Assembly (NCBI RefSeq): GCF_034119865.1
Contig: NZ_CP139421.1
Location: forward strand, 186,001-250,000
Source of the DNA: Algoriphagus sp. NG3
GTDB taxonomy: Bacteria; Bacteroidota; Bacteroidia; Cytophagales; Cyclobacteriaceae
Length of the DNA stretch: 64,000 bases
Direction: 5' to 3'
Shown here: one piece after another, positions 35,385 to 46,444 of the stretch
How the letters are laid out: the number at the start of each line of letters is the position of its first letter
How positions within the stretch are numbered: the first letter of the stretch is position 1
Made by a program: the position numbers and the translations under genes
Notes under the pieces: model-generated
Database searches by the model: none
Told to the model about the DNA's origin: nothing
What the model saw: the letters and a program-made list of their open reading frames with translations, nothing else

Positions 35385-36203
35385 ATGAAGACAGTAAAAA
35401 CACTACTTATTTCGGCAACATTGCTTGCCTCTTTGCAGGCAGTTGCACAAAAAAACCTTGGGCTTGAATCAAGTCCTAATTTCAGAGAGTTGGGCGGTCT
35501 AGCAGTTGGGGACGGATATCAGATCAAAGATGATATGATCTATCGCTCAGGAAGCTTCAGTCATCTGCCAGAGGACGACAAGGAAAAACTGGCCAAAACC
35601 AATATTAATACCGTTGTGGATTTCCGCTCTGCTTTCGAAATTGAGCGGGAGCCGGATGATATTCCCGCATCATTACAGGCTGCCTATGTCTCCTCCCCTA
35701 TAGGAGCGATGGATCAAAAAGCTATGGGCAAATTTATGGAGGTGCTTAATAGGGAAGAATTCAAGACCGAGAGTCTGGATTCCTTGATGGTGGAGGCGAA
35801 TAGAAATTTTGTTGTACATATTGCGGATTACAAGCCTTTCTTTGAAAGCCTTCTAGATCAGGATGCTGTAGTGTTATTTCATTGTAGTGCTGGCAAAGAC
35901 CGAACAGGTTTGGCATCCTCTCTACTGCTTCATATCCTTGGGGCTGACTGGGATACCATCATGTCCGACTATTTGAGGTCAAATGATGCCGTACAGAAGC
36001 TCGATGAAAACAAGCTCGCCATGTACGGGATATCAAAGGAAAGGGCGAGGTATTTAATGGGGGTTCAGCCAGTATATCTGGAAACAGCCTGGGCTGAGAT
36101 CAACAAGAAATATGGCAGTATTGATGCCATGCTGGAAAAAGAGTTTGGAATCGGGGAAGAGCAAAAAGCAAGATTAAGAGCCAAATTCCTGAAGAAAGGC
36201 TAG
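35385..36203 (+). CDS. Secreted tyrosine/phosphoinositide-type phosphatase
   Basis: A 272-residue exported enzyme with a signal peptide of about 21 residues (ending AVAQ). The CX5R active-site loop is FHCSAGKDRTGLASSLLLH. The Lys-Asp inside the loop is typical of the MptpB/LipA-like Tyr_phosphatase3 family, whose members have phosphotyrosine and phosphoinositide phosphatase activity. SSPNFRELGGL near the mature N-terminus and YRSGSF are family-specific. It starts 9 bp after the TonB receptor stop, so it is its operon partner: it may release phosphate from a ligand in the periplasm before or after uptake. A terminator follows 53 bp downstream. Confidence 0.9.
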   Translation: MKTVKTLLISATLLASLQAVAQKNLGLESSPNFRELGGLAVGDGYQIKDDMIYRSGSFSHLPEDDKEKLAKTNINTVVDFRSAFEIEREPDDIPASLQAAYVSSPIGAMDQKAMGKFMEVLNREEFKTESLDSLMVEANRNFVVHIADYKPFFESLLDQDAVVLFHCSAGKDRTGLASSLLLHILGADWDTIMSDYLRSNDAVQKLDENKLAMYGISKERARYLMGVQPVYLETAWAEINKKYGSIDAMLEKEFGIGEEQKARLRAKFLKKG

Positions 36204-36410: not shown

Positions 36411-36500
36411 TATTTGGGTTGTAAATAGATTTTCTGTTTACCTTTTTTAACTATCCCAGACTAAGTAGCAGAATCAAGTTTAACCAGACTGAAAAATGCT

Positions 36501-37928
36501 ATGTATTTGAATAGGATAGAAAAAACAATTTGTATGGCTGCACTTTTAATGATAGGAGGGAGTGTAATGCCACTTCAAGCCCAAATGAAAGAGCGGGTGG
36601 TAGAGCGCGCCAAAGAGTCATCCACCAACAAAGCGGAACGTACAGTAGATGAAACCATAGAATCTGTAGGAGATGGGATAGTAAACGGGGTGAAGGGATT
36701 ATTTACTAAAAAAGGCAAAAAAGGTAAGGATCAATCGGATAGTATGGAATCTGGAGGAAGCCAGGGGACGGGCGGGGAGTATGGATCAGAAGACTGGTCT
36801 GAGGAGGGAGGTTTCGACGGGATGAACTCCGGACAGGCTTCAGATGGTAGTGCTAGCTTATCCAAATACACCAAATTCTCCTTTGTCCAGGGCGAAGAAA
36901 TCATAGCCTATGATGATTTTATGCAGGATAAAGTGGGGGATTTGCCTGCTTCTTGGGTCACTACTGGAACAGCTGAAATTGTCAATTTTGACGGGATCGA
37001 AGGAAACTGGGTGTGGTTTAACAAGACCAAAGGAAATTTTATACCTGAATACCTGAATGATTTTCCCGAGAACTTCACCGTGGAGTTTGACCTGATGTAT
37101 GATTTTGCCTTTGGGACATTTAGTTCCAGTAGAAATATTGTGCTTGTGTTCACCGATATTGCCAATCCTGAAGCAAATTTAGGATGGGAGGGGTCCGGGG
37201 ATTATTTCACGCTACAGAAATTGTCCGACAACTATCTGGGAATTCAGTTTTCAGGCAATAGTCATGATGGAGGGCCTTACATCGTAGCCAGAAAAGCAGT
37301 TCATACCGAAAAGGGATTGAATTTCAGAAATGATTTCAATGCCAAGCACCTGATTAACGAAGAAGGAGCCAACAAGTCAATCCATATCTCCATTTCCCGT
37401 ATGGGCAGAAGGGTGCAGGTATTTGCCAATGAGGAAAAAGTCCTGGATCTTACTGCGGCCTTTCAAAAAGATGTTAAGCTGACAAGTGCGAGATTTTTTG
37501 TCAACAACGCAGCTGATGGAGACAATTACTACCTCAGCAACATTCGCTATGCTGTAGGGCAACCGGATACCCGAAACAAACTCCTGGAAAGCGGAACTTA
37601 CAGCACCTCTGCAATCACCTTCAACTCGGGCTCTGCTGTGATCAAACCTGAATCCTATGCCATACTCAAAGAAATAGCAGATGCACTTAATTCCGAGTCA
37701 GGTAAGTCAGTATCCATAATCGGCCATACCGATAGTGATGGTTCCGCAGAACTAAACCAGCGACTATCTGAGGAGCGTGCAGCTGCGGTAATGCTAGCCT
37801 TGCAAAATGAATTTGGTGTCAATAATGCCATGGAGACATCAGGTAAAGGGGCTTCAGATCCCATCGCTGAGAATAATACCCCTACTGGGAAAGCAAATAA
37901 CAGACGGGTGGAATTCATCCTTAATTAA
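36501..37928 (+). CDS. OmpA-domain outer-membrane/periplasmic protein
   Basis: A 475-residue secreted protein. Signal peptide about 1-28 (ending PLQAQ). A charged amphipathic region (KERVVERAKESSTNKAERT) and a Gly/Ser-rich low-complexity stretch (about 75-115) precede a beta-rich central domain (about 120-350) resembling a concanavalin-like fold of unknown specificity. The C-terminal OmpA peptidoglycan-binding domain covers about 365-475, with SVSIIGHTDSDGS, NQRLSEERAAAV and NNRRVEFIL motifs. It probably links the cell wall to an outer-membrane or extracellular partner. It is a single gene with its own long upstream region, which shares a 12-bp motif with the AraC gene upstream. Confidence 0.88.
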   Translation: MYLNRIEKTICMAALLMIGGSVMPLQAQMKERVVERAKESSTNKAERTVDETIESVGDGIVNGVKGLFTKKGKKGKDQSDSMESGGSQGTGGEYGSEDWSEEGGFDGMNSGQASDGSASLSKYTKFSFVQGEEIIAYDDFMQDKVGDLPASWVTTGTAEIVNFDGIEGNWVWFNKTKGNFIPEYLNDFPENFTVEFDLMYDFAFGTFSSSRNIVLVFTDIANPEANLGWEGSGDYFTLQKLSDNYLGIQFSGNSHDGGPYIVARKAVHTEKGLNFRNDFNAKHLINEEGANKSIHISISRMGRRVQVFANEEKVLDLTAAFQKDVKLTSARFFVNNAADGDNYYLSNIRYAVGQPDTRNKLLESGTYSTSAITFNSGSAVIKPESYAILKEIADALNSESGKSVSIIGHTDSDGSAELNQRLSEERAAAVMLALQNEFGVNNAMETSGKGASDPIAENNTPTGKANNRRVEFILN

Positions 37929-38018: not shown

Positions 38019-38447
38019 ATGAAACTACACTGTATCAATCTTTCGGTCCTGAGCCTGGTAGCTGTCCTTTTACTTTCTAACTGCAAAGAAAAGGAGGAGC
38101 CTGCCACTGATTACTCTCAGTTTATGATGGGAGAATGGACGATTTCCGAGTCGTTCACTCTGGCAGGCGAACCTGAGATTATTGACGATTGCAACCGGCA
38201 AACAACTTATAATTTTATGGCAGGGGGAATACTGAACGTCAATCCCCGCGTGACTGCCAGTGATGGAAACAGCACGTTTTGCGCAGCAGTGCTGAATGAT
38301 GGATTGGGAGTGGATGTGGATTATGTGATCACAGGGAATAGGATGGAGAGTCCCATAGGTAATGCCACACTGGAAAAAATCAGCAACAGTTCCGTGAAGC
38401 TGACTTTTGACGAAGAGGAATTTGGAATAGTGGTATTGGAGAGGTAA
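38019..38447 (+). CDS. Lipocalin-like lipoprotein
   Basis: A 142-residue protein with a lipoprotein signal peptide; the lipid-attachment Cys is about residue 22 in LLLSNC, followed by a charged KEKEEP spacer. The mature domain begins with FMMGEWTISES, like the Bacteroidota lipocalin-like family (G-x-W motif), and contains two cysteines (IDDCNRQ, STFCAAV) that could pair. No ligand is known. It stands between the OmpA gene and the convergent CHAT gene. A hairpin with T run at 38487-38516 follows. Confidence 0.8.
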   Translation: MKLHCINLSVLSLVAVLLLSNCKEKEEPATDYSQFMMGEWTISESFTLAGEPEIIDDCNRQTTYNFMAGGILNVNPRVTASDGNSTFCAAVLNDGLGVDVDYVITGNRMESPIGNATLEKISNSSVKLTFDEEEFGIVVLER

Positions 38448-38652: not shown

Positions 38653-41600
38653 TTAACTGGTCTTTTTAGCTCTGACTCTCCAGCTAATTCCTATTCCCCC
38701 CACGATCAAAAGTAAGGCAATTGCTATCATCCAATTGGGTATTCCAGCGTGCCTGATAGGATTGGTATTGCCGGAGACTACCAGCCCTGCCCAGTAAAAT
38801 GGATGACTTAGCTCCGCATCCGGATTGGCTTTTAGATATTCCCGCTTAGCATTGGCCAGTGAAGTGTTTTTTTTATTTCCTTCCAATAAAGATTGATAAA
38901 AAGAGACCATAAGCGATTCAGAACTTTGATCGGGGAGTTGCCAAAGTCCCATGATCAAGCTTGGTACGCCGGCATATGAAAATGCAGTAGCCAAACTTTT
39001 TACCCCTTCCCCTTTCTTGATCGGGCCATATCCAGTATTGCAAGCACTCAAGGTAGCGAGATCCGCCTGAAGCCGCATATTATAAAGTTCATAAGCATGA
39101 AGCCTACTGTCATCAGCAAATACAAAACTGGATTGCTCTCCTTCCAGGTCGTTGACTTCTGCATGCATGGCAAGATGCAAAATTGAATAATCCTTGGCTT
39201 TTGCTAGGAAGAAACCCTTATCCAGCTTATCTCCCTGATGGATTTCACCTTCCAGTAATTCGGAGATCCGGATAGCTTCTGAGGCGGCACCCGGCAAATC
39301 AATAGCTGAATTGCCCCGTAGCAATTCTTTTTCCTGAGTAGTGGAATATTGCGGAGCAAAAGCAGCAAAGGAAGCAGTGCTGTTTTTCTCCATTCCTTCC
39401 TGTAGCAACCAGAGCGGTAGCGAACCGGAGTAGCTGATGTCATGCTGTGTCACCAGAAATCCGTCGGGCTTACCGGTTGGTGTCAGCGCTTCAAAAGGCA
39501 CATAGTTTACTATATCATCGGGAATGATCAATAATTGCCTCTGGAAATCAGAATCTATTCCATCAGGAAAGAGGGATGCAAACAGCTCCGTGGAAGATTC
39601 ATAAAAAGCTATATCCCTACTCTTCAGTTGATCCATTGTCTTGGATACTAAAGATCTAAGCTTGGTGGTGGAGCCGAGGCTATGCAGCAAGATTTTGTTC
39701 TTTGAGATTTCAAACAGATAAGAAGAAGAGTCTGTCACTAGATATCTCAGAAGGGTCGTTTGTTTGTCTATTGCCTCTTGAACATGGGATAGTTTAACAT
39801 TGCTTTGACTCAGTCTCAGGTACTGGGGAGTGAGTTCTTCCAATGTACTCTCCAGAATCTCGAGCTCTTGCTCGTGGTGATGGAGCTTGGATCTCAAGAA
39901 GTCCGGCTGCCCGGTCTCAGCGGAATCTTTTTGGAGGCTTAGCAACTGTTCTTTGTAGTGGACAATCAGTTTGCGGTGCTCATCTTCCTTTTGTTGAATT
40001 GAATCGGGAACAAGAATGGCTGTTTGGCGTGCATTTTTCATGAACTTCTTCCAATCCTGACTGCTCCTATTGTTTTCCAAGAGGCCCAATAACTGGCTTA
40101 GAGCGCCCTCGTCTTCCGGATGTTCTGATCTAAGATGGCATTCCAGCAGCCCAAGCTGGATCTTTGACTGCAGGGATGCTAAGGCATCAGTATATGCACC
40201 ACCTAGGTAATAGCTGTCCAGCATTGCCATGGCCAATTGAAAAAGATGCTTTGCGGTTTCCAAATCCTGATATGAAGCCGTACTGTCAAAAAGCGAAAGA
40301 TATGTTTGCCCAACGATGGTCAGTCCTGAGATGTAATTTGAATGTACCCGTCCACCAAAATCGACCAACTGAATAGACTGCAGTGAGCTAGACAGACTGT
40401 CTGATCCTGTCAACATCGCCAATGTCTTACTTCCGTAGTGTTTTGCGCTCTTTAGATCATGTTTTGCGTTGGCGATTTTAGCTGCAATAATAATATAGTC
40501 AATCACCTCTCCCTTGTGCCGGGAGACGGCCATGGCAGAGTCAATATATTTTTCGGCAATCGCAGGATTGTTTTTATCCAGATAAATCAAGGACAGTTTT
40601 GCATACGTGTCAGCCACTAAAGAGGAGTGACCGTGGCTGTCTTTAATTTTTAATGCTTTTTCATAGTGGGAAATTGCACCATCAAAGTCTCCTTTCAAAA
40701 AATGGAGTTCTGCCAATTCTTCCTCAGAACTGACCAGATACTTTAGGAACTCTTGAATATGGGATTGGTCTATGGATGAGACCAGAGATGCGATAGAGTC
40801 TCTGTAGCTGATGGCCTCATCCAATTGCCCTTTTTGTGTCAGGACATGTAAGTGTTTGTTCCAATAATTCAACATCAAGTGGAGGTTCGGATCATCTTTT
40901 TTCTGGGAAATCAACTGGTTTTTCTTCCCCCAATTTTCATCTTTATTGACAACTAGTTCTCTGATTTTAGCCAATAGCCCTTCCGCTTCATTGAGGTCAC
41001 CATACCGTAAATTCCAATTGATCAAATTCCCGTAAACCGTCATCAGGTAACTTTGATCCAATTCCTCAGCTTCTTCCCATACTTTTGCCGCTTTTTGATA
41101 AGTTTGGTACTGCTTATTTGACAGGCCCAGTAAGCCATAGTTAAATGCCAAGTTGTTATAAGTTAGGCCTACCTCTTGGTGGCTTTCTCCATAGAAAGAT
41201 ATTTGCTTGTCAAGCGCCTGCTCATAAAATTCCACAGCCTCTGGGTAGTTCCCGATTTTGTTGTGGATATAGGCAATATCAAAAAGAACACTCGATAAAC
41301 TTTCCGGGTCAGGATCATCTGTGGTAATAAGGGTTCTGTGGATTTTTTCGGCTACCGGAAGCGCCTCGGGCCATTTTCCGTTGTATCCGAGAAAATGATA
41401 GTAGGTATTGAGGAGGGATATTTTCTCATCCAAAGGGAGATTAGTACTGTCCATCAGCTGGTAAGCGGATGCCAAAAGGGGAATGCCTTCCGCTGCGTAA
41501 TTGTACGAAAGAGCCAAAGAGTGATTTCTTTTAACCTGCAGATAATTCCGGATTTCAGTCACCCCGTCTGTGTAGGACTCCAATGCGCTATCTCTATAGG

Positions 41601-44600
41601 AAACAGATTCGGTATGCAACCCCAGCTTCTGAAGGGAGTCAGCTTTTTTTGTAAAGACGCCCCATGATGAATCGCCATATAGATCCAAGATGCTTTCAGC
41701 GACAGATTCAGACTCTTTTTGAGTGTCAGTCTTTAGTTCTTTTTCAGTTCCACAAGAAGCCGTTGTCAAGAGTAGAATGATTGCAAAGCCTCTGTTTCTT
41801 TTGATAGTATAATAACTTAACAACGCTAGAGCTAATACTGCTCCCACAATCCACCAGCCCTTCCGTCCGCGATCTTCCGCTACATCACCCGCATAGATAA
41901 ATGCTCCCCAGTAATAGGGATGTGCTGTGTTTTCATCAGCAGTGGCAATGTAATCCAGCTTCGAATGGCGGATTGCCGATTCGTACGAATCCCCTTTTTT
42001 TATTTGGTTGTAAAAACCAGTCATTAAAGTTTTAGTAGATAGGTCAGGAACTGCCCAGATACTCATGAGTATATTTGAAATGTTGGCATACATAAAACCT
42101 CTGGCAAGACTCATAATCCCTTCCCCTTTTTGATAATCTCCTACACCTGAGTTACAGGCTGATAGCGTGACCAGATCAGCAGTTAATTGAAGGTTGAACA
42201 ATTCAAAACTGTGCAGGAAGCCATCCTCTGCTTCGTCTTCCTGCATTACTAGACTGGAAATCAGCGGATTAGTATTGTTTATTTGGCTATGCGCCGCAAG
42301 ATGTATGATATCTGCGGTGGCGGCACTTTCTTTGAATCTGCTTTCCAGTGCATCTGTAGCAAGCAAAATTGTTGAATTGAAACCTTCAGCTATTTCTCTG
42401 ACTTCCGCAGTATTGTTGGGTAGGGATGCGAAAGTAGCTCTGGTAACTTCATTTGAGGCATTGCGAACCTCATTCTGGAATCCGGAATACGCCGGAGCTA
42501 TGCCTAGAAATTTCACCTCTTTCCCAGATTTTATCTTCTTTCGGTTCTTGTTTAATAAAAAAGCGGAGTAATGATATGAAATCTGATAACGCTTAATCAA
42601 ATAGGGTAAATCCTTTAGACTATGGGCTGGCTTGGCGGGTTCGCTCAGAAAGGCTTCGAAAGGCAACAATGCCAAATCCCCATCCGGAATGATGATTACT
42701 TTGTCGGCATTAAACTGATCCAAAATCGGCTTGAGAAGGATTTCGAATAAGTTATATCCATGGTTTTTGAAATCATTGGTTTTCGATTGGATAGAACTTA
42801 AAAACTCCTGAGTTTCCTTTTTAAGGGCAGGCGTATTTTGGATTTTCAAATAGTTCGATTTGCCTTTGAGAGTATAGAAGGCCAAATAATAAGATCCAAA
42901 ATTTTGGTATTGGATCAGAAGATGGTCTGACTTGCTGATACTCAAAGGTAGCGTTGCCGGGAGCAGTTCGTTTTCTACACCATAGACTTCACCGTATTTA
43001 ATAGCGTAGTAGTTTGGATAGTCTTTCTTATAGGAGGATATCAACATCTCTAAGTCAGCTTTTGTCTGGAAATAAGCCTCATTTTTGGGATTCACCAGAT
43101 AGAATTCCTCCGTTAAGTCTCCGCTTTGCTGCTCTGAATCCTGATAACCTACCGCTTCAAATTCCAGCAATTTTGATTTAAGCTCATATTCTTTATCCAA
43201 TAGCTCTTGAGGAATACCGGTTACATCCAGACTGGCTGTGAAGAAGGATTCCCTTAGAGGCAGTGATTTGGAGAAATCGGATAAGAGAATACTTTTATTC
43301 AGGTATTCACTACTCTTCGTGAGGTCGTATAGCTGATTACTGACCAAAATTGCCTCCTGTGCCAGATCATAGTTAGAAGCATAAATATTGGATTTGGAGC
43401 GAAGGCTATAGATCCCCTGCTTGGTTTTCAAAGCTTGTCGAATGGATAGAATGTATGAGTCCAATGCAGCGTCCAGGTAGCTTTGATCTTGATTGATCTC
43501 ATAAAATCTTGTCAACAAATAGCCTTTTCGGGAGAAAAAATCCGTAAGAAAATCTTTGCCTGATAGTTCTTGGAATGATGGATTGTAGGTTATGGGTTTT
43601 CCTTCAATCCCCAAAAATACACGCGTAGCTTTCTGAATCTGTTCCTCCGCAGCAGTTGGGTTATGCTGACTTAGTTCATATTCCGCCTGATCAAACAGCA
43701 ATAGCCCATAAGAATCCCGAATATTATCCTGACTTTTCTCAAACTGCTCTATGGCTTTTGCCCGATACACTAATTGCTGAGGCAGATCTTCCTTTGCCTT
43801 ATAAATTTTGGCATATTTCAAATAGGTGTCGGCGAGATGGGGACGATCTTCTCCATATGCAGCTAATTGGAATTTCTCTGCCTTTTCTGCAAATACCAGT
43901 GCCGAGTCATAATCTCCTGCTACAAGGTATGCGTTGGTGAATTCATTGTAAAACTCCAGTAATTTGGGGTCATCAGGGTACTTTTTTTGAAATTCATCGT
44001 AATTTCTTTTTAAGTAGGATAAGGCTATTCTGCCATCCTCTGGACTGTGGTTTCGTTGGGAATAAACATCGGCGAATATCAAATCCAAAGGAAATCTATC
44101 CGTAATATGGGTGTACTGCTCCGGGATATTGTTTCGGATGGTTTCCGATTGCTTAAGATGGTTGATGGCTTCTTCGTGAACCCCGAGAATACTATAGATC
44201 AATGCAATATTCGAATGCACCATCTCTCCGATCATGGTGTTCATTTCTGCCTTGTCCTGCCGCAGGATTACCAGACAACTATCATAATAGCGCAAGGATT
44301 GGTCGTTGTCATTGATGCTTTTATAGACTGTAGCTACATTGTTATAAGTCCGTGCGATGTGTCCGCTATTTTGATTATCCTGATTGTTTTCTTTGAGGAA
44401 GTTGAGTGATTTCAAGAAGAAGGACGCAGACTTATTGTACTCGTTTTTTCCTGCCAACACCACAGCATAGGTACTCCGAACCATATTTACCAATCGCATA
44501 TTGGTGGAGGGGTTATTGTCCAATACTACATTTGCTTTTGCATGATAAAAATCAGCCGAATCCAGTTTGTTTTGGCGGTGAAAGCTTGTTCCCAATTGAG

Positions 44601-44838
44601 TATAAGTATAGGCGAGACGATCCGTTGCTTTTACCTTTTCAAAATAGGATGCAAGAGATTTAAAAGTTTCCCTAGCTTCTTCAGTATCAATTTTTTGTCT
44701 GGAAAGATGGACGGCTGTGGTGTCCAGAAGGTTTGACTTATGCCAGTATTCTGTGCTGTCAACGGTAGATTGTTGAAGTGCTTTAGCCTGCTGCTTGAAA
44801 GAACATAGGAAAATAAAAATCACTAAAAATCTGATCAT
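38653..44838 (-). CDS. Giant tandem TPR-CHAT protease, two complete modules
   Basis: About 2061 residues made of two successive, similar units. Unit 1: signal peptide (about 1-21), tetratricopeptide repeats to about 520, CHAT caspase-like domain about 620-985 with catalytic His850 (HLAAHSQ) and Cys895 (LSACNSG), then a membrane helix at about 995-1012. Unit 2 opens at once with KRNRGFAIILLLTTASCGT, which looks like an internal lipoprotein signal peptide (Cys1029), then TPRs to about 1560, a coiled region, a second CHAT domain with His1892 (HLAMHAE) and Cys1933 (LSACNTG), and a C-terminal membrane helix (about 2034-2055). CHAT domains are clan CD proteases. It is the third gene of the sigma/anti-sigma operon. 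The ATG at 44838 starts the signal peptide and is preferred to a TTG at 44871. The substrate is unknown. Confidence 0.88.
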   Translation of the reverse strand: MIRFLVIFIFLCSFKQQAKALQQSTVDSTEYWHKSNLLDTTAVHLSRQKIDTEEARETFKSLASYFEKVKATDRLAYTYTQLGTSFHRQNKLDSADFYHAKANVVLDNNPSTNMRLVNMVRSTYAVVLAGKNEYNKSASFFLKSLNFLKENNQDNQNSGHIARTYNNVATVYKSINDNDQSLRYYDSCLVILRQDKAEMNTMIGEMVHSNIALIYSILGVHEEAINHLKQSETIRNNIPEQYTHITDRFPLDLIFADVYSQRNHSPEDGRIALSYLKRNYDEFQKKYPDDPKLLEFYNEFTNAYLVAGDYDSALVFAEKAEKFQLAAYGEDRPHLADTYLKYAKIYKAKEDLPQQLVYRAKAIEQFEKSQDNIRDSYGLLLFDQAEYELSQHNPTAAEEQIQKATRVFLGIEGKPITYNPSFQELSGKDFLTDFFSRKGYLLTRFYEINQDQSYLDAALDSYILSIRQALKTKQGIYSLRSKSNIYASNYDLAQEAILVSNQLYDLTKSSEYLNKSILLSDFSKSLPLRESFFTASLDVTGIPQELLDKEYELKSKLLEFEAVGYQDSEQQSGDLTEEFYLVNPKNEAYFQTKADLEMLISSYKKDYPNYYAIKYGEVYGVENELLPATLPLSISKSDHLLIQYQNFGSYYLAFYTLKGKSNYLKIQNTPALKKETQEFLSSIQSKTNDFKNHGYNLFEILLKPILDQFNADKVIIIPDGDLALLPFEAFLSEPAKPAHSLKDLPYLIKRYQISYHYSAFLLNKNRKKIKSGKEVKFLGIAPAYSGFQNEVRNASNEVTRATFASLPNNTAEVREIAEGFNSTILLATDALESRFKESAATADIIHLAAHSQINNTNPLISSLVMQEDEAEDGFLHSFELFNLQLTADLVTLSACNSGVGDYQKGEGIMSLARGFMYANISNILMSIWAVPDLSTKTLMTGFYNQIKKGDSYESAIRHSKLDYIATADENTAHPYYWGAFIYAGDVAEDRGRKGWWIVGAVLALALLSYYTIKRNRGFAIILLLTTASCGTEKELKTDTQKESESVAESILDLYGDSSWGVFTKKADSLQKLGLHTESVSYRDSALESYTDGVTEIRNYLQVKRNHSLALSYNYAAEGIPLLASAYQLMDSTNLPLDEKISLLNTYYHFLGYNGKWPEALPVAEKIHRTLITTDDPDPESLSSVLFDIAYIHNKIGNYPEAVEFYEQALDKQISFYGESHQEVGLTYNNLAFNYGLLGLSNKQYQTYQKAAKVWEEAEELDQSYLMTVYGNLINWNLRYGDLNEAEGLLAKIRELVVNKDENWGKKNQLISQKKDDPNLHLMLNYWNKHLHVLTQKGQLDEAISYRDSIASLVSSIDQSHIQEFLKYLVSSEEELAELHFLKGDFDGAISHYEKALKIKDSHGHSSLVADTYAKLSLIYLDKNNPAIAEKYIDSAMAVSRHKGEVIDYIIIAAKIANAKHDLKSAKHYGSKTLAMLTGSDSLSSSLQSIQLVDFGGRVHSNYISGLTIVGQTYLSLFDSTASYQDLETAKHLFQLAMAMLDSYYLGGAYTDALASLQSKIQLGLLECHLRSEHPEDEGALSQLLGLLENNRSSQDWKKFMKNARQTAILVPDSIQQKEDEHRKLIVHYKEQLLSLQKDSAETGQPDFLRSKLHHHEQELEILESTLEELTPQYLRLSQSNVKLSHVQEAIDKQTTLLRYLVTDSSSYLFEISKNKILLHSLGSTTKLRSLVSKTMDQLKSRDIAFYESSTELFASLFPDGIDSDFQRQLLIIPDDIVNYVPFEALTPTGKPDGFLVTQHDISYSGSLPLWLLQEGMEKNSTASFAAFAPQYSTTQEKELLRGNSAIDLPGAASEAIRISELLEGEIHQGDKLDKGFFLAKAKDYSILHLAMHAEVNDLEGEQSSFVFADDSRLHAYELYNMRLQADLATLSACNTGYGPIKKGEGVKSLATAFSYAGVPSLIMGLWQLPDQSSESLMVSFYQSLLEGNKKNTSLANAKREYLKANPDAELSHPFYWAGLVVSGNTNPIRHAGIPNWMIAIALLLIVGGIGISWRVRAKKTS

Positions 44839-44867
44839 AGTATTTAAAGAGTTAACGCGTAGAATTG

Positions 44868-45617
44868 TCAATCCAAACTCAATAGAATCCTTTCCACCTC
44901 ATCCATTTTATAGCCGCTGCTTTTTCTCAGACGGATCATTTCCTCTTTTCCTTTGGTAGTGTCACCTTTTACCAGATAGCTTAAAGCCATGTACCACTTG
45001 GCCTGATCCCTAAGCTGTGTACCATCGCTATAGAGGTAATTGTCAAAATAATAGATTGCACTGTCGTATTGCCCCAGTTCAAACTTGGAAATGCCTTTGT
45101 AGAATTGGATATAATCTGTTTGGTAGGGTAAGATTCTAGTAAAAAGACTGTCAGAAACACCATATTTTCCGCTTTCATAAGCTATGAATGCGGCTTTTTC
45201 CATATCCTCTGGATTGATTTCTTCTCCACGTGTGATAGGGGAGACTACATTGGGATAAGGGGAGTAATAGGAAAGAAAGGAATCATAAGCAGTATCTGAG
45301 TCCTGGGTATCAGTAAGATTCAGAATAAGGACAGTGGCAGCTACAAGCAATGCTACTCCTGCTGCAACCTTCCAGATAAAGGTCTTAGGATGGATTTTAT
45401 GCACTTTTTGATCATCCTTTAACTCCATCTCGACCTCACCTAAAAACGACTTGAGTTCTTTATGCTTATGCCGAATCACAGCTTCACGGGTCGCCTGCTG
45501 AAACTCAAATTCCTCCCGGAATTCCTCATCTGAACGCAGCAAAGATTCCAGCCTCAGTTTTTCCTCCTCAGTCAGCTTTCCCTTAAAGAAACGGTCAAGC
45601 AATTCTTTACCTTCCAT
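44868..45617 (-). CDS. Transmembrane TPR anti-sigma-like protein
   Basis: A 249-residue protein. The N-terminal cytosolic part (about 1-80) is charged and helical and starts GKELLDRFFKGKLTEEEKLRLESLL, much like the zinc-less anti-sigma regions of Bacteroidota. One membrane helix is at about 82-102 (VAAGVALLVAATVLILNL). The periplasmic part contains two or three TPR-like helices (YKGISKFELGQYDSAIYYFDNYL, AKWYMALSYLVKGDTTKGKEEM). It begins one base after the sigma factor stop, and the CHAT gene follows after 29 bp. It probably holds the sigma factor at the membrane and senses a periplasmic partner through its TPRs, possibly the CHAT protein itself. That link is inferred from gene order. Confidence 0.85.
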   Translation of the reverse strand: MEGKELLDRFFKGKLTEEEKLRLESLLRSDEEFREEFEFQQATREAVIRHKHKELKSFLGEVEMELKDDQKVHKIHPKTFIWKVAAGVALLVAATVLILNLTDTQDSDTAYDSFLSYYSPYPNVVSPITRGEEINPEDMEKAAFIAYESGKYGVSDSLFTRILPYQTDYIQFYKGISKFELGQYDSAIYYFDNYLYSDGTQLRDQAKWYMALSYLVKGDTTKGKEEMIRLRKSSGYKMDEVERILLSLD

Positions 45618-45618
45618 C

Positions 45619-46173
45619 TTAGTATTCAAATTTTTTGTGTTTAAACGACTCCTTGAGTGTCTTCATGCAGCGGGATTTGTGGCTTTTGACCACATCCGGA
45701 TGATTGTAATCCAACAATAACTGGATTTCCTTCATGCTTTTGTTTTCATAGTAATACAGCTCAAGGATTTTTTTGCATTTTTCCCCGAGCTTGGCGAGTG
45801 ATTTTCCGAGGAAAGACACTTTGGAATCAGGTTCTTCTATAAAGAGTTTGGCTTCTTCATACATTCCCTGAGTCCATTCCTGATCTTGGGTGAATTCTAC
45901 GCCTGGACGTTCCTTTTTCAGCTTGGTAAACAACATAAACTTCCCCATCGAAAAGAGGTAGGTTTTGATACTGCTTTTTTCCAGTTCTAATTTCCCGCTT
46001 ACAGCCCTGTCAAATAAGGCAATACTTACATCTTGATAGATGTCCTGGAGTAGCTCCTCGTCCTTGTGGTAGCGTTTGGCAAATTGGAGGAATTGCTCCC
46101 GATATAATTTATAAACTTCTCCAAGTGCGGCTTTATCCCCGGATTTCAGCTTCTCTATAAGAATTTCACTCAT
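45619..46173 (-). CDS. ECF-type sigma-70 family factor
   Basis: A 184-residue sigma factor with regions 2 and 4 only. Region 2 includes LYREQFLQFAKRYHKDEELLQDIYQDVSIALFD, the usual core-binding and -10 recognition helices. Region 4 (about 130-180) has KILELYYYENKSMKEIQLLLDY and DVVKSHKSRCMKTLKE, the helix-turn-helix for the -35. It is the promoter-proximal gene of a three-gene minus-strand operon with the anti-sigma-like and CHAT genes. The 271-bp gap to the divergent DUF4412 gene must hold the promoters for both directions, so the secreted-protein genes downstream on the plus strand are candidate targets. Confidence 0.93.
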   Translation of the reverse strand: MSEILIEKLKSGDKAALGEVYKLYREQFLQFAKRYHKDEELLQDIYQDVSIALFDRAVSGKLELEKSSIKTYLFSMGKFMLFTKLKKERPGVEFTQDQEWTQGMYEEAKLFIEEPDSKVSFLGKSLAKLGEKCKKILELYYYENKSMKEIQLLLDYNHPDVVKSHKSRCMKTLKESFKHKKFEY

Positions 46174-46444
46174 TTACCTTTAGTCTTAAAAATTGGAATA
46201 AGGTAAACATATATATAATTTTTATTTATACATACACTTAGTTCAAGATCAGTGGGTTAGTTTTGATGAGCCTAGGTGCGAAAGTTTTGACACAATTGAT
46301 GCAAAGTTGCGTGTACGTGTGAAGGAGACGATAGCCTCATTTTTCAGGGCAGTCAAATGACCTGGATAAAAAGTTTTTTAAGGTCATCTGTTTACCATTT
46401 TTCAAGGAGGAAGACTAAGTCATAGCAATCAAAAATCACACGCT

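Follow-up and report, generated by a model that had tools for sequence, protein, structure and literature searches.

A candidate envelope-stress switch of Bacteroidota in which a TPR-CHAT protease may cut a membrane anti-sigma protein

What does a caspase-fold protease gene do beside the genes of a sigma factor and its putative anti-sigma protein? The locus that raises this question lies in a 64,000-nucleotide stretch of the Algoriphagus sp. NG3 genome (NZ_CP139421.1, positions 186,001 to 250,000; the whole stretch is called the window below), where three minus-strand genes follow one another in the order of an extracytoplasmic function (ECF) sigma factor, a membrane anti-sigma protein and a giant protein with tetratricopeptide repeats (TPRs) and CHAT protease domains. 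To our knowledge, most CHAT proteases of Bacteroidota are without a known substrate. There is a precedent for a link to sigma factors: in Craspase, the locus that encodes an ECF sigma factor also encodes its inhibitor, which is cleaved by a TPR-CHAT cysteine protease (PMC10028731, available part of the text). An initial annotation of the window had proposed that the protease senses a signal outside the cytoplasm and acts on the anti-sigma-like protein, thereby freeing the sigma factor. This core idea is partly supported by our analysis and serves as the leading hypothesis. We consider it reasonably probable that the three genes form a conserved envelope-stress switch of Bacteroidota, in which the caspase-fold CHAT protease would bind the anti-sigma protein and be its first cutter, and cleavage would set the sigma factor free.

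The proposed switch can be pictured as follows. At rest, the membrane anti-sigma protein would hold the ECF sigma factor through its cytosolic domain, and the TPR-CHAT protease, exported by its signal peptide and anchored by its C-terminal helix, would be placed in the periplasm. An envelope signal may then be read either by the TPRs of the protease or by those of the anti-sigma protein, and the activated CHAT would cut the anti-sigma protein in an exposed juxtamembrane loop; the most likely position is Arg130, which is Met in one lineage. After this first cut, and perhaps some later trimming, the sigma factor would be released and would transcribe its own operon, the gene of an OmpA-like protein, that of a small beta-barrel protein of the outer membrane and, in some species, that of CHAT. 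In the window's variant, two CHAT proteases appear to be fused into one polypeptide.

We now examine the parts in turn. The three genes are present where the initial annotation placed them, and its spacings of 1 bp and 29 bp hold when the ATG starts at 45617 and 44838 are used; the open reading frame (ORF) caller had picked earlier TTG codons upstream of these ATGs as starts (Table 1). The first product scores above the cut-off of TIGR02937 (sigma70-ECF), in keeping with its annotation as a sigma factor, and its matches to Pfam Sigma70_r2 and r4 fall under their cut-offs. The second was correctly described as a single-span TPR protein, with one transmembrane (TM) span near residues 84-101 and a TPR region. 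Its cytosolic part had been called anti-sigma-like, and here a profile of 21 homologues of this middle protein, compared by hhalign with 14 sigma-linked proteins, gives a match (97% probability, E 9.9e-11) that spans the cytosolic domain and the TM helix. The 14 reference proteins match the NCBI anti-sigma model NF052375, five of them above its cut-off, and all have a sigma gene in the fetched locus. The same model is matched directly by 16 of the 21 family members at E values up to 0.1, and the window's own protein reaches 16.8 bits, far under the 100-bit cut-off. By these profile comparisons the cytosolic part of the middle protein is homologous to anti-sigma factors, and it would presumably sequester the sigma factor. 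In the AlphaFold model of the protein, with a mean predicted local distance difference test score (pLDDT) of 81.5, helices cover residues 2-68, 81-102 (TM), 105-115 and 136-248 (TPR helices), and residues 116-135 have no secondary structure. A fold search with the whole model returned mostly TPR proteins among the best 50 of 1189 matches, none of them labelled anti-sigma. Among named proteins, the closest homologues of the middle protein come from Algoriphagus, and in the closest relative (G019) the sigma and anti-sigma proteins are 97% and 96% identical to those of the window. Anti-sigma-like TM-TPR proteins also occur in three loci (L033, L041, L045) with no adjoining sigma gene, beside a gene whose product has about 1000 residues; our guess is that these may belong to a Bat-type operon.

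Is the association of the three genes accidental? Small profiles for sigma, anti-sigma and CHAT were built from fetched loci. Among 100 Bacteroidota loci centred on an anti-sigma gene, 58 have a CHAT gene in the fetched stretch; the count is 12 of 20 in relatives of the window and 32 of 40 among the best phylum-wide matches. As a control, 20 regions of 15 kb were taken at regular spacing from five genomes: none has CHAT or anti-sigma, and five have a sigma gene. Seen from the side of the protease, an anti-sigma gene is present in the fetched stretch of 61 of the 80 named contigs closest to the window's second CHAT domain (CHAT2), and in 49 of 61 loci once those near contig edges are set aside; because these contigs were chosen by likeness to CHAT2, they do not sample CHATs at random. 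The linkage of sigma, anti-sigma and CHAT is not a matter of chance. Since it recurs over the phylum, the three-gene set is conserved beyond the window, and the suspicion that CHAT might be unlinked from such pairs in relatives falls away. We collected 117 non-redundant anti-sigma/CHAT pairs, some of them from overlapping or related genomes. In 60 pairs CHAT is the tail-to-tail neighbour of the anti-sigma gene, in 17 (the window included) it is the next gene downstream with the same orientation, and in 40 it lies elsewhere nearby; a sigma gene adjoins the anti-sigma gene in 113. CHAT proteases are abundant in Bacteroidota: at least one is found in 59 of the 68 family genomes searched, and one family member (G198) yields 71 first-look CHAT candidates in a 3.7-Mb genome, with 29 scored as matches and many in tandem on a single contig (C190). 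In one locus with CHAT upstream (L136, 4001-5953), the CHAT neighbour is a PKD / DUF7619 / DUF7849 protein, probably a surface protein.

If the linkage is real, is the protease intact, and on which side of the membrane would it act? That the giant protein has two intact CHAT domains is borne out by a PF12770 score of 345 bits in two stretches and by the pairs H861/C906 and H1903/C1944. The His-Cys pair is retained in all 117 linked CHATs. By family and by catalytic His and Cys, the window's CHAT domains are predicted to be proteolytically active. A hydrophobic helix follows CHAT at the C-terminus in 50 of 55 domains with an anti-sigma gene in the locus versus one of 15 without (the first 70 CHAT domains compared), and the lone unlinked CHAT with such a helix (L062) starts 380 bp from the start of its contig, with its neighbours outside the sequence. 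The helix is present in 113 of the 117 linked pairs, and a hydrophobic N-terminal stretch in 92 of 117 linked CHATs, some of whose ORFs are cut or start too early. Because the C-terminal helix is followed by a basic tail, the positive-inside rule would put the protease domain in the periplasm, and, going by export signals and TM helices, CHAT and the anti-sigma TPR domain would lie on the same, periplasmic side.

The earlier picture of an exported giant protein with two CHAT domains needs two amendments. CHAT1 is followed by a hydrophobic helix (about residues 1005-1024), the basic loop KRNRG and a lipoprotein-signal-like stretch ending in Cys (residues 1029-1040), and the second TPR-CHAT unit ends in a C-terminal hydrophobic helix of its own. 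By this layout two TPR-CHAT genes have been fused into the giant gene, and in view of the internal helix, the lipoprotein-like signal and the terminal helix its product is predicted to be membrane-anchored and not soluble. The closest relative carries two separate CHAT genes, encoding 972 and 1105 residues. The longer product is 90% identical to residues 971-2072 of the window's protein and keeps a counterpart of the CHAT1 tail upstream of the lipoprotein-like stretch, with 47% identity in the 90 residues that surround the junction. The shorter is only 34% identical to the window's CHAT1. The simplest reading is that the fusion is older and that CHAT1 was replaced in this relative. Two or more CHAT genes beside one sigma/anti-sigma pair are also found, for example, in L056 and L228 (one genome), L197 and L220; L197 lies on a contig titled Rickettsiales bacterium, possibly a misassigned bin, and has a Bacteroidota-type triad with three CHAT genes. 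The window's genome encodes a third CHAT protein, of 1793 residues (L026, genome 2355000-2372000; 4935-10316 on the minus strand of that stretch), with no sigma or anti-sigma match within its 17-kb stretch, and long CHAT frames of about this size are present in several related genomes.

We turn our attention to the place of the cut. Just outside the membrane, the anti-sigma protein has a loop (PITRGE) that is conserved yet disordered, as seen in the Arg130 counts and the AlphaFold scores of Table 1, and YPNVVKPITRGE is kept in Belliella anti-sigma proteins that are only 50-53% identical overall. A conserved but disordered stretch in this position resembles a protease site, and it is plausible, from the model and the alignment, that PITRGE is the likeliest site of cleavage. 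Arg or Lys stands within one column of the site in 100 of the 117 anti-sigma proteins with CHAT in the locus and in 21 of 24 with CHAT elsewhere in the genome or of undetermined presence. On the side of the enzyme, a residue shortly after a conserved LW is Asp in 103 and Glu in 14 of the 117 CHATs; this Asp we take to line the specificity (S1) pocket, and Craspase chains have Ser aligned at the position. Thirteen of the 14 Glu-type CHATs pair with a Met-type, Arg-less anti-sigma site (DPGLxTAMS-like), and the remaining one (L154) with a Lys-bearing site; among the Asp-type pairs, a single one (L244) lacks both Arg and Lys at the site. As a sign of coevolution between enzyme and substrate, this covariation is only a hint. 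In Craspase, deletion of M427 in Csx30 blocked its cleavage (PMC10028731, available part of the text).

Which genes would the released sigma factor transcribe? A two-part motif (GTTTACyT-N14-16-ACTAA; in the window GTTTACCT-N16-ACTAA) was derived from the regions upstream of 111 sigma genes versus 959 other upstream regions. It matches 60 times across 222 loci (3.37 Mb, some overlapping): 21 matches lie before sigma genes, five before CHAT, 28 before other genes, and six have no assigned gene. Two control patterns of equal make-up have four matches each, none near a gene start. We infer that the motif is the promoter of the linked sigma factor. The strict form of the motif has four matches in the 5.9-Mb genome of the window, two of them at this locus, before the sigma gene and before an OmpA-like gene beyond CHAT; the others lie 57 bp before the gene of a 169-residue beta-barrel protein (PF13505) and 34 bp before a gene of 185 residues. 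In eight further genomes, chosen for their motif-bearing loci, 23 of 24 matches closely precede a gene and 20 of 24, as reckoned from coordinates, are within about 11 kb of a sigma/anti-sigma/CHAT locus. The genes behind them encode sigma, CHAT, OmpA-like proteins, the same beta-barrel family (165-169 residues), lipoprotein-like and other exported proteins and, again, the 185-residue protein. Such predicted targets suggest a role in outer-envelope maintenance.

Table 1. Features of the locus in the window (coordinates are window positions)
Feature	Position	Strand	Basis
ECF sigma factor, 184 residues	45619..46173	-	TIGR02937 56.3 bits, cut-off 42.9
Membrane anti-sigma protein, 249 residues: cytosolic anti-sigma domain, one TM helix, periplasmic TPR domain (predicted)	44868..45617	-	hhalign, AlphaFold model
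Arg130 codon in conserved disordered juxtamembrane loop, proposed cut site	45228..45230	-	Arg in 91/114 homologues; pLDDT <50 at residues 129-133
Fused double TPR-CHAT gene, ATG start (ORF to TTG at 44871)	38653..44838	-	two PF12770 stretches; separate genes in closest relative
CHAT domain 1 (H861, C906)	41887..42771	-	
Junction, residues 1005-1040: CHAT1 TM helix, basic loop KRNRG, lipoprotein-signal-like stretch of second unit	41752..41859	-	sequence; homologous stretch in closest relative (G019)
CHAT domain 2 (H1903, C1944)	38770..39606	-	
C-terminal hydrophobic helix of giant protein, then basic tail	38686..38736	-	
Promoter-like motif GTTTACCT-N16-ACTAA, 6 bp upstream of sigma ATG	46180..46208	-	
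Motif GTTTACCT-N16-ACTAA, 36 bp upstream of OmpA-like gene	36436..36464	+	
OmpA-like protein, 475 residues, predicted sigma target	36501..37928	+	PF00691 80.5 bits; same-kind proteins behind motif in relatives
Small lipoprotein-like gene, 90 bp 3' of OmpA-like gene, possibly cotranscribed	38019..38447	+	ORF

Around the OmpA-like gene, the product of the small lipoprotein-like gene has no match to Pfam. Directly before the OmpA-like gene stands a tyrosine phosphatase gene (PF13350; window 35385-36203, plus strand), itself behind a large gene that looks TonB-dependent-receptor-like by eye.

How well does the proposed switch withstand the rest of the data? Several results weigh against it. CHAT is present in only 14 of 40 order-level anti-sigma-centred loci, a sample that was drawn with the Met-type alignment and in which two loci yielded no anti-sigma ORF above threshold, and sigma and anti-sigma genes stand beside CHAT in five of 20 CHAT loci of the family sample (the best-scoring ones, picked before their neighbours were seen). 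Arg or Lys is within one column of the site in four of seven anti-sigma proteins from CHAT-less genomes and in two of five from genomes with only weak or other CHATs; the idea that the loop Arg is confined to CHAT-bearing genomes did not hold cleanly, and the cut-site argument is weakened by it. A CHAT tree built on an earlier set of 102 pairs has three Asp/Glu changes and two site changes, with one independent pair on supported branches, and because the changes number only two or three, the covariation of Arg/Met with Asp/Glu carries little statistical weight. The reversed motif has five matches in the window's genome versus four for the motif itself, and 32 versus 24 in the eight further genomes, a genome-wide control compared by count alone, so the evidence for the motif rests on position. 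A looser form of the motif is not enriched upstream of CHAT genes (two of 61 versus a background of 42 of 959). The end of the motif coincides in several loci with the called start of sigma, or is only a few bases away from it, and there the start codon or the transcription start needs checking.

These results have to be seen together with other ways to explain the locus. The strongest rival turns CHAT into an output: the sigma/anti-sigma pair would sense stress via another protease or by a direct conformational change and induce CHAT for envelope quality control. We hold this to be possible, though unlikely. It accommodates the 17 pairs with CHAT on the same strand directly behind the anti-sigma gene, the five loci with the motif upstream of CHAT, and the pairs that have no nearby CHAT, which are common (42 of 100 loci). 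A CHAT gene that lies tail-to-tail with anti-sigma needs a promoter of its own, however, and this is the arrangement of 60 pairs, with the looser motif not enriched before CHAT; nor does an output role explain why anti-sigma linkage is tied to the membrane anchor of CHAT or why the disordered loop is conserved.

A different possibility, which we find distinctly improbable, is that CHAT has a different substrate in the periplasm, or that it does no more than bind the TPR domain of the anti-sigma protein and serves as scaffold or co-sensor, any cut of the anti-sigma protein being left to a classical site-1 protease. TPRs in both proteins would suit such an arrangement, as would the subtilase-family gene (PF00082) that lies between sigma/anti-sigma and CHAT in two distant loci (L038, 3995-5377; L154, 9393-10706) and the occurrence of the loop in some CHAT-less genomes too, but the His and Cys kept in every linked CHAT are needless for a pure scaffold. 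The defence role that the initial annotation had allowed for, with the CHAT protease as effector of an antiphage or other conflict system, has in our judgement very little chance of being right. CHAT proteases do have conflict roles outside CRISPR. In type III-E CRISPR immunity, too, a CHAT protease acts (PMC10028731, available part of the text). PADLOC lends the idea no support: CHAT and sigma go unmatched, and the middle protein has a single weak match (E 0.016). Most of the predicted targets are OmpA-like, beta-barrel and other exported or outer-membrane proteins.

We return to the envelope-stress switch with CHAT as first cutter and compare it with known systems. The nearest published one is Craspase, the type III-E CRISPR set of Cas7-11, the TPR-CHAT protein Csx29, Csx30 and CASP-sigma (PMC10028731, available part of the text). 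Solved structures related to the window's CHAT domains include its TPR-CHAT chains, and it is RNA-guided, unlike the set proposed here. The Craspase TPR-CHAT is cytosolic, with neither export signal nor membrane anchor, whereas the window's CHAT has an N-terminal hydrophobic signal and a C-terminal membrane helix; the inhibitor of the window's set is a membrane protein with an anti-sigma domain and TPRs, and the predicted targets are envelope genes. With RseA-DegS-RseP it would share a membrane-spanning anti-sigma protein with an extracytoplasmic part and an envelope signal that triggers the first cut outside the membrane (in part after PMC10028731, available part of the text). In the window, the protease-like gene linked to the pair encodes CHAT and not a PDZ serine protease; the candidate first cutter differs from that system in being a caspase-fold TPR-CHAT cysteine protease. 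The window's set would work like Craspase and like RseA-type proteolysis, and by the features tested it belongs to neither. The initial statement that the route differs from site-1/site-2 cascades is overstated, as a periplasmic cut would be a site-1-type step; what stands is the caspase-fold CHAT as candidate cutter. The CRISPR-linked CalpL/CalpT/CalpS and the PCaspase cascade also release sigma factors under protease control and are activated by nucleotide signals; they are likened to the window's set, and set apart from it, by description alone. For an anti-sigma system that controls an envelope process in Bacteroidota, we know of no CHAT or TPR partner and set it apart by description. Its likeness is judged from a title cited in the available part of PMC12045153. 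CHAT proteins, one apparently transmembrane, are described in a type VI secretion system region of Bacteroides fragilis (PMC11854122, available part of the text). A term search of the accessible text of papers on Bacteroidota outer-membrane biology found CHAT in none and sigma factor in one reference title only. Among the matches listed from the open literature there is no sigma/anti-sigma/CHAT set outside CRISPR, and an earlier mention is possible.

We lean slightly towards a phylum-wide pathway in which a membrane-anchored periplasmic TPR-CHAT protease would be dedicated to the first cut of an ECF anti-sigma protein at a conserved loop Arg, with a regulon of OmpA and beta-barrel proteins, and in which Craspase would be the cytosolic cousin of a widespread CHAT-to-sigma circuit. 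If this is true, one large class of CHAT proteases acquires a substrate together with a predicted site of cleavage, a promoter motif and a limited set of targets, and caspase-fold control of sigma factors would extend beyond CRISPR systems. The question of how these bacteria sense envelope damage would also gain a concrete point of attack.

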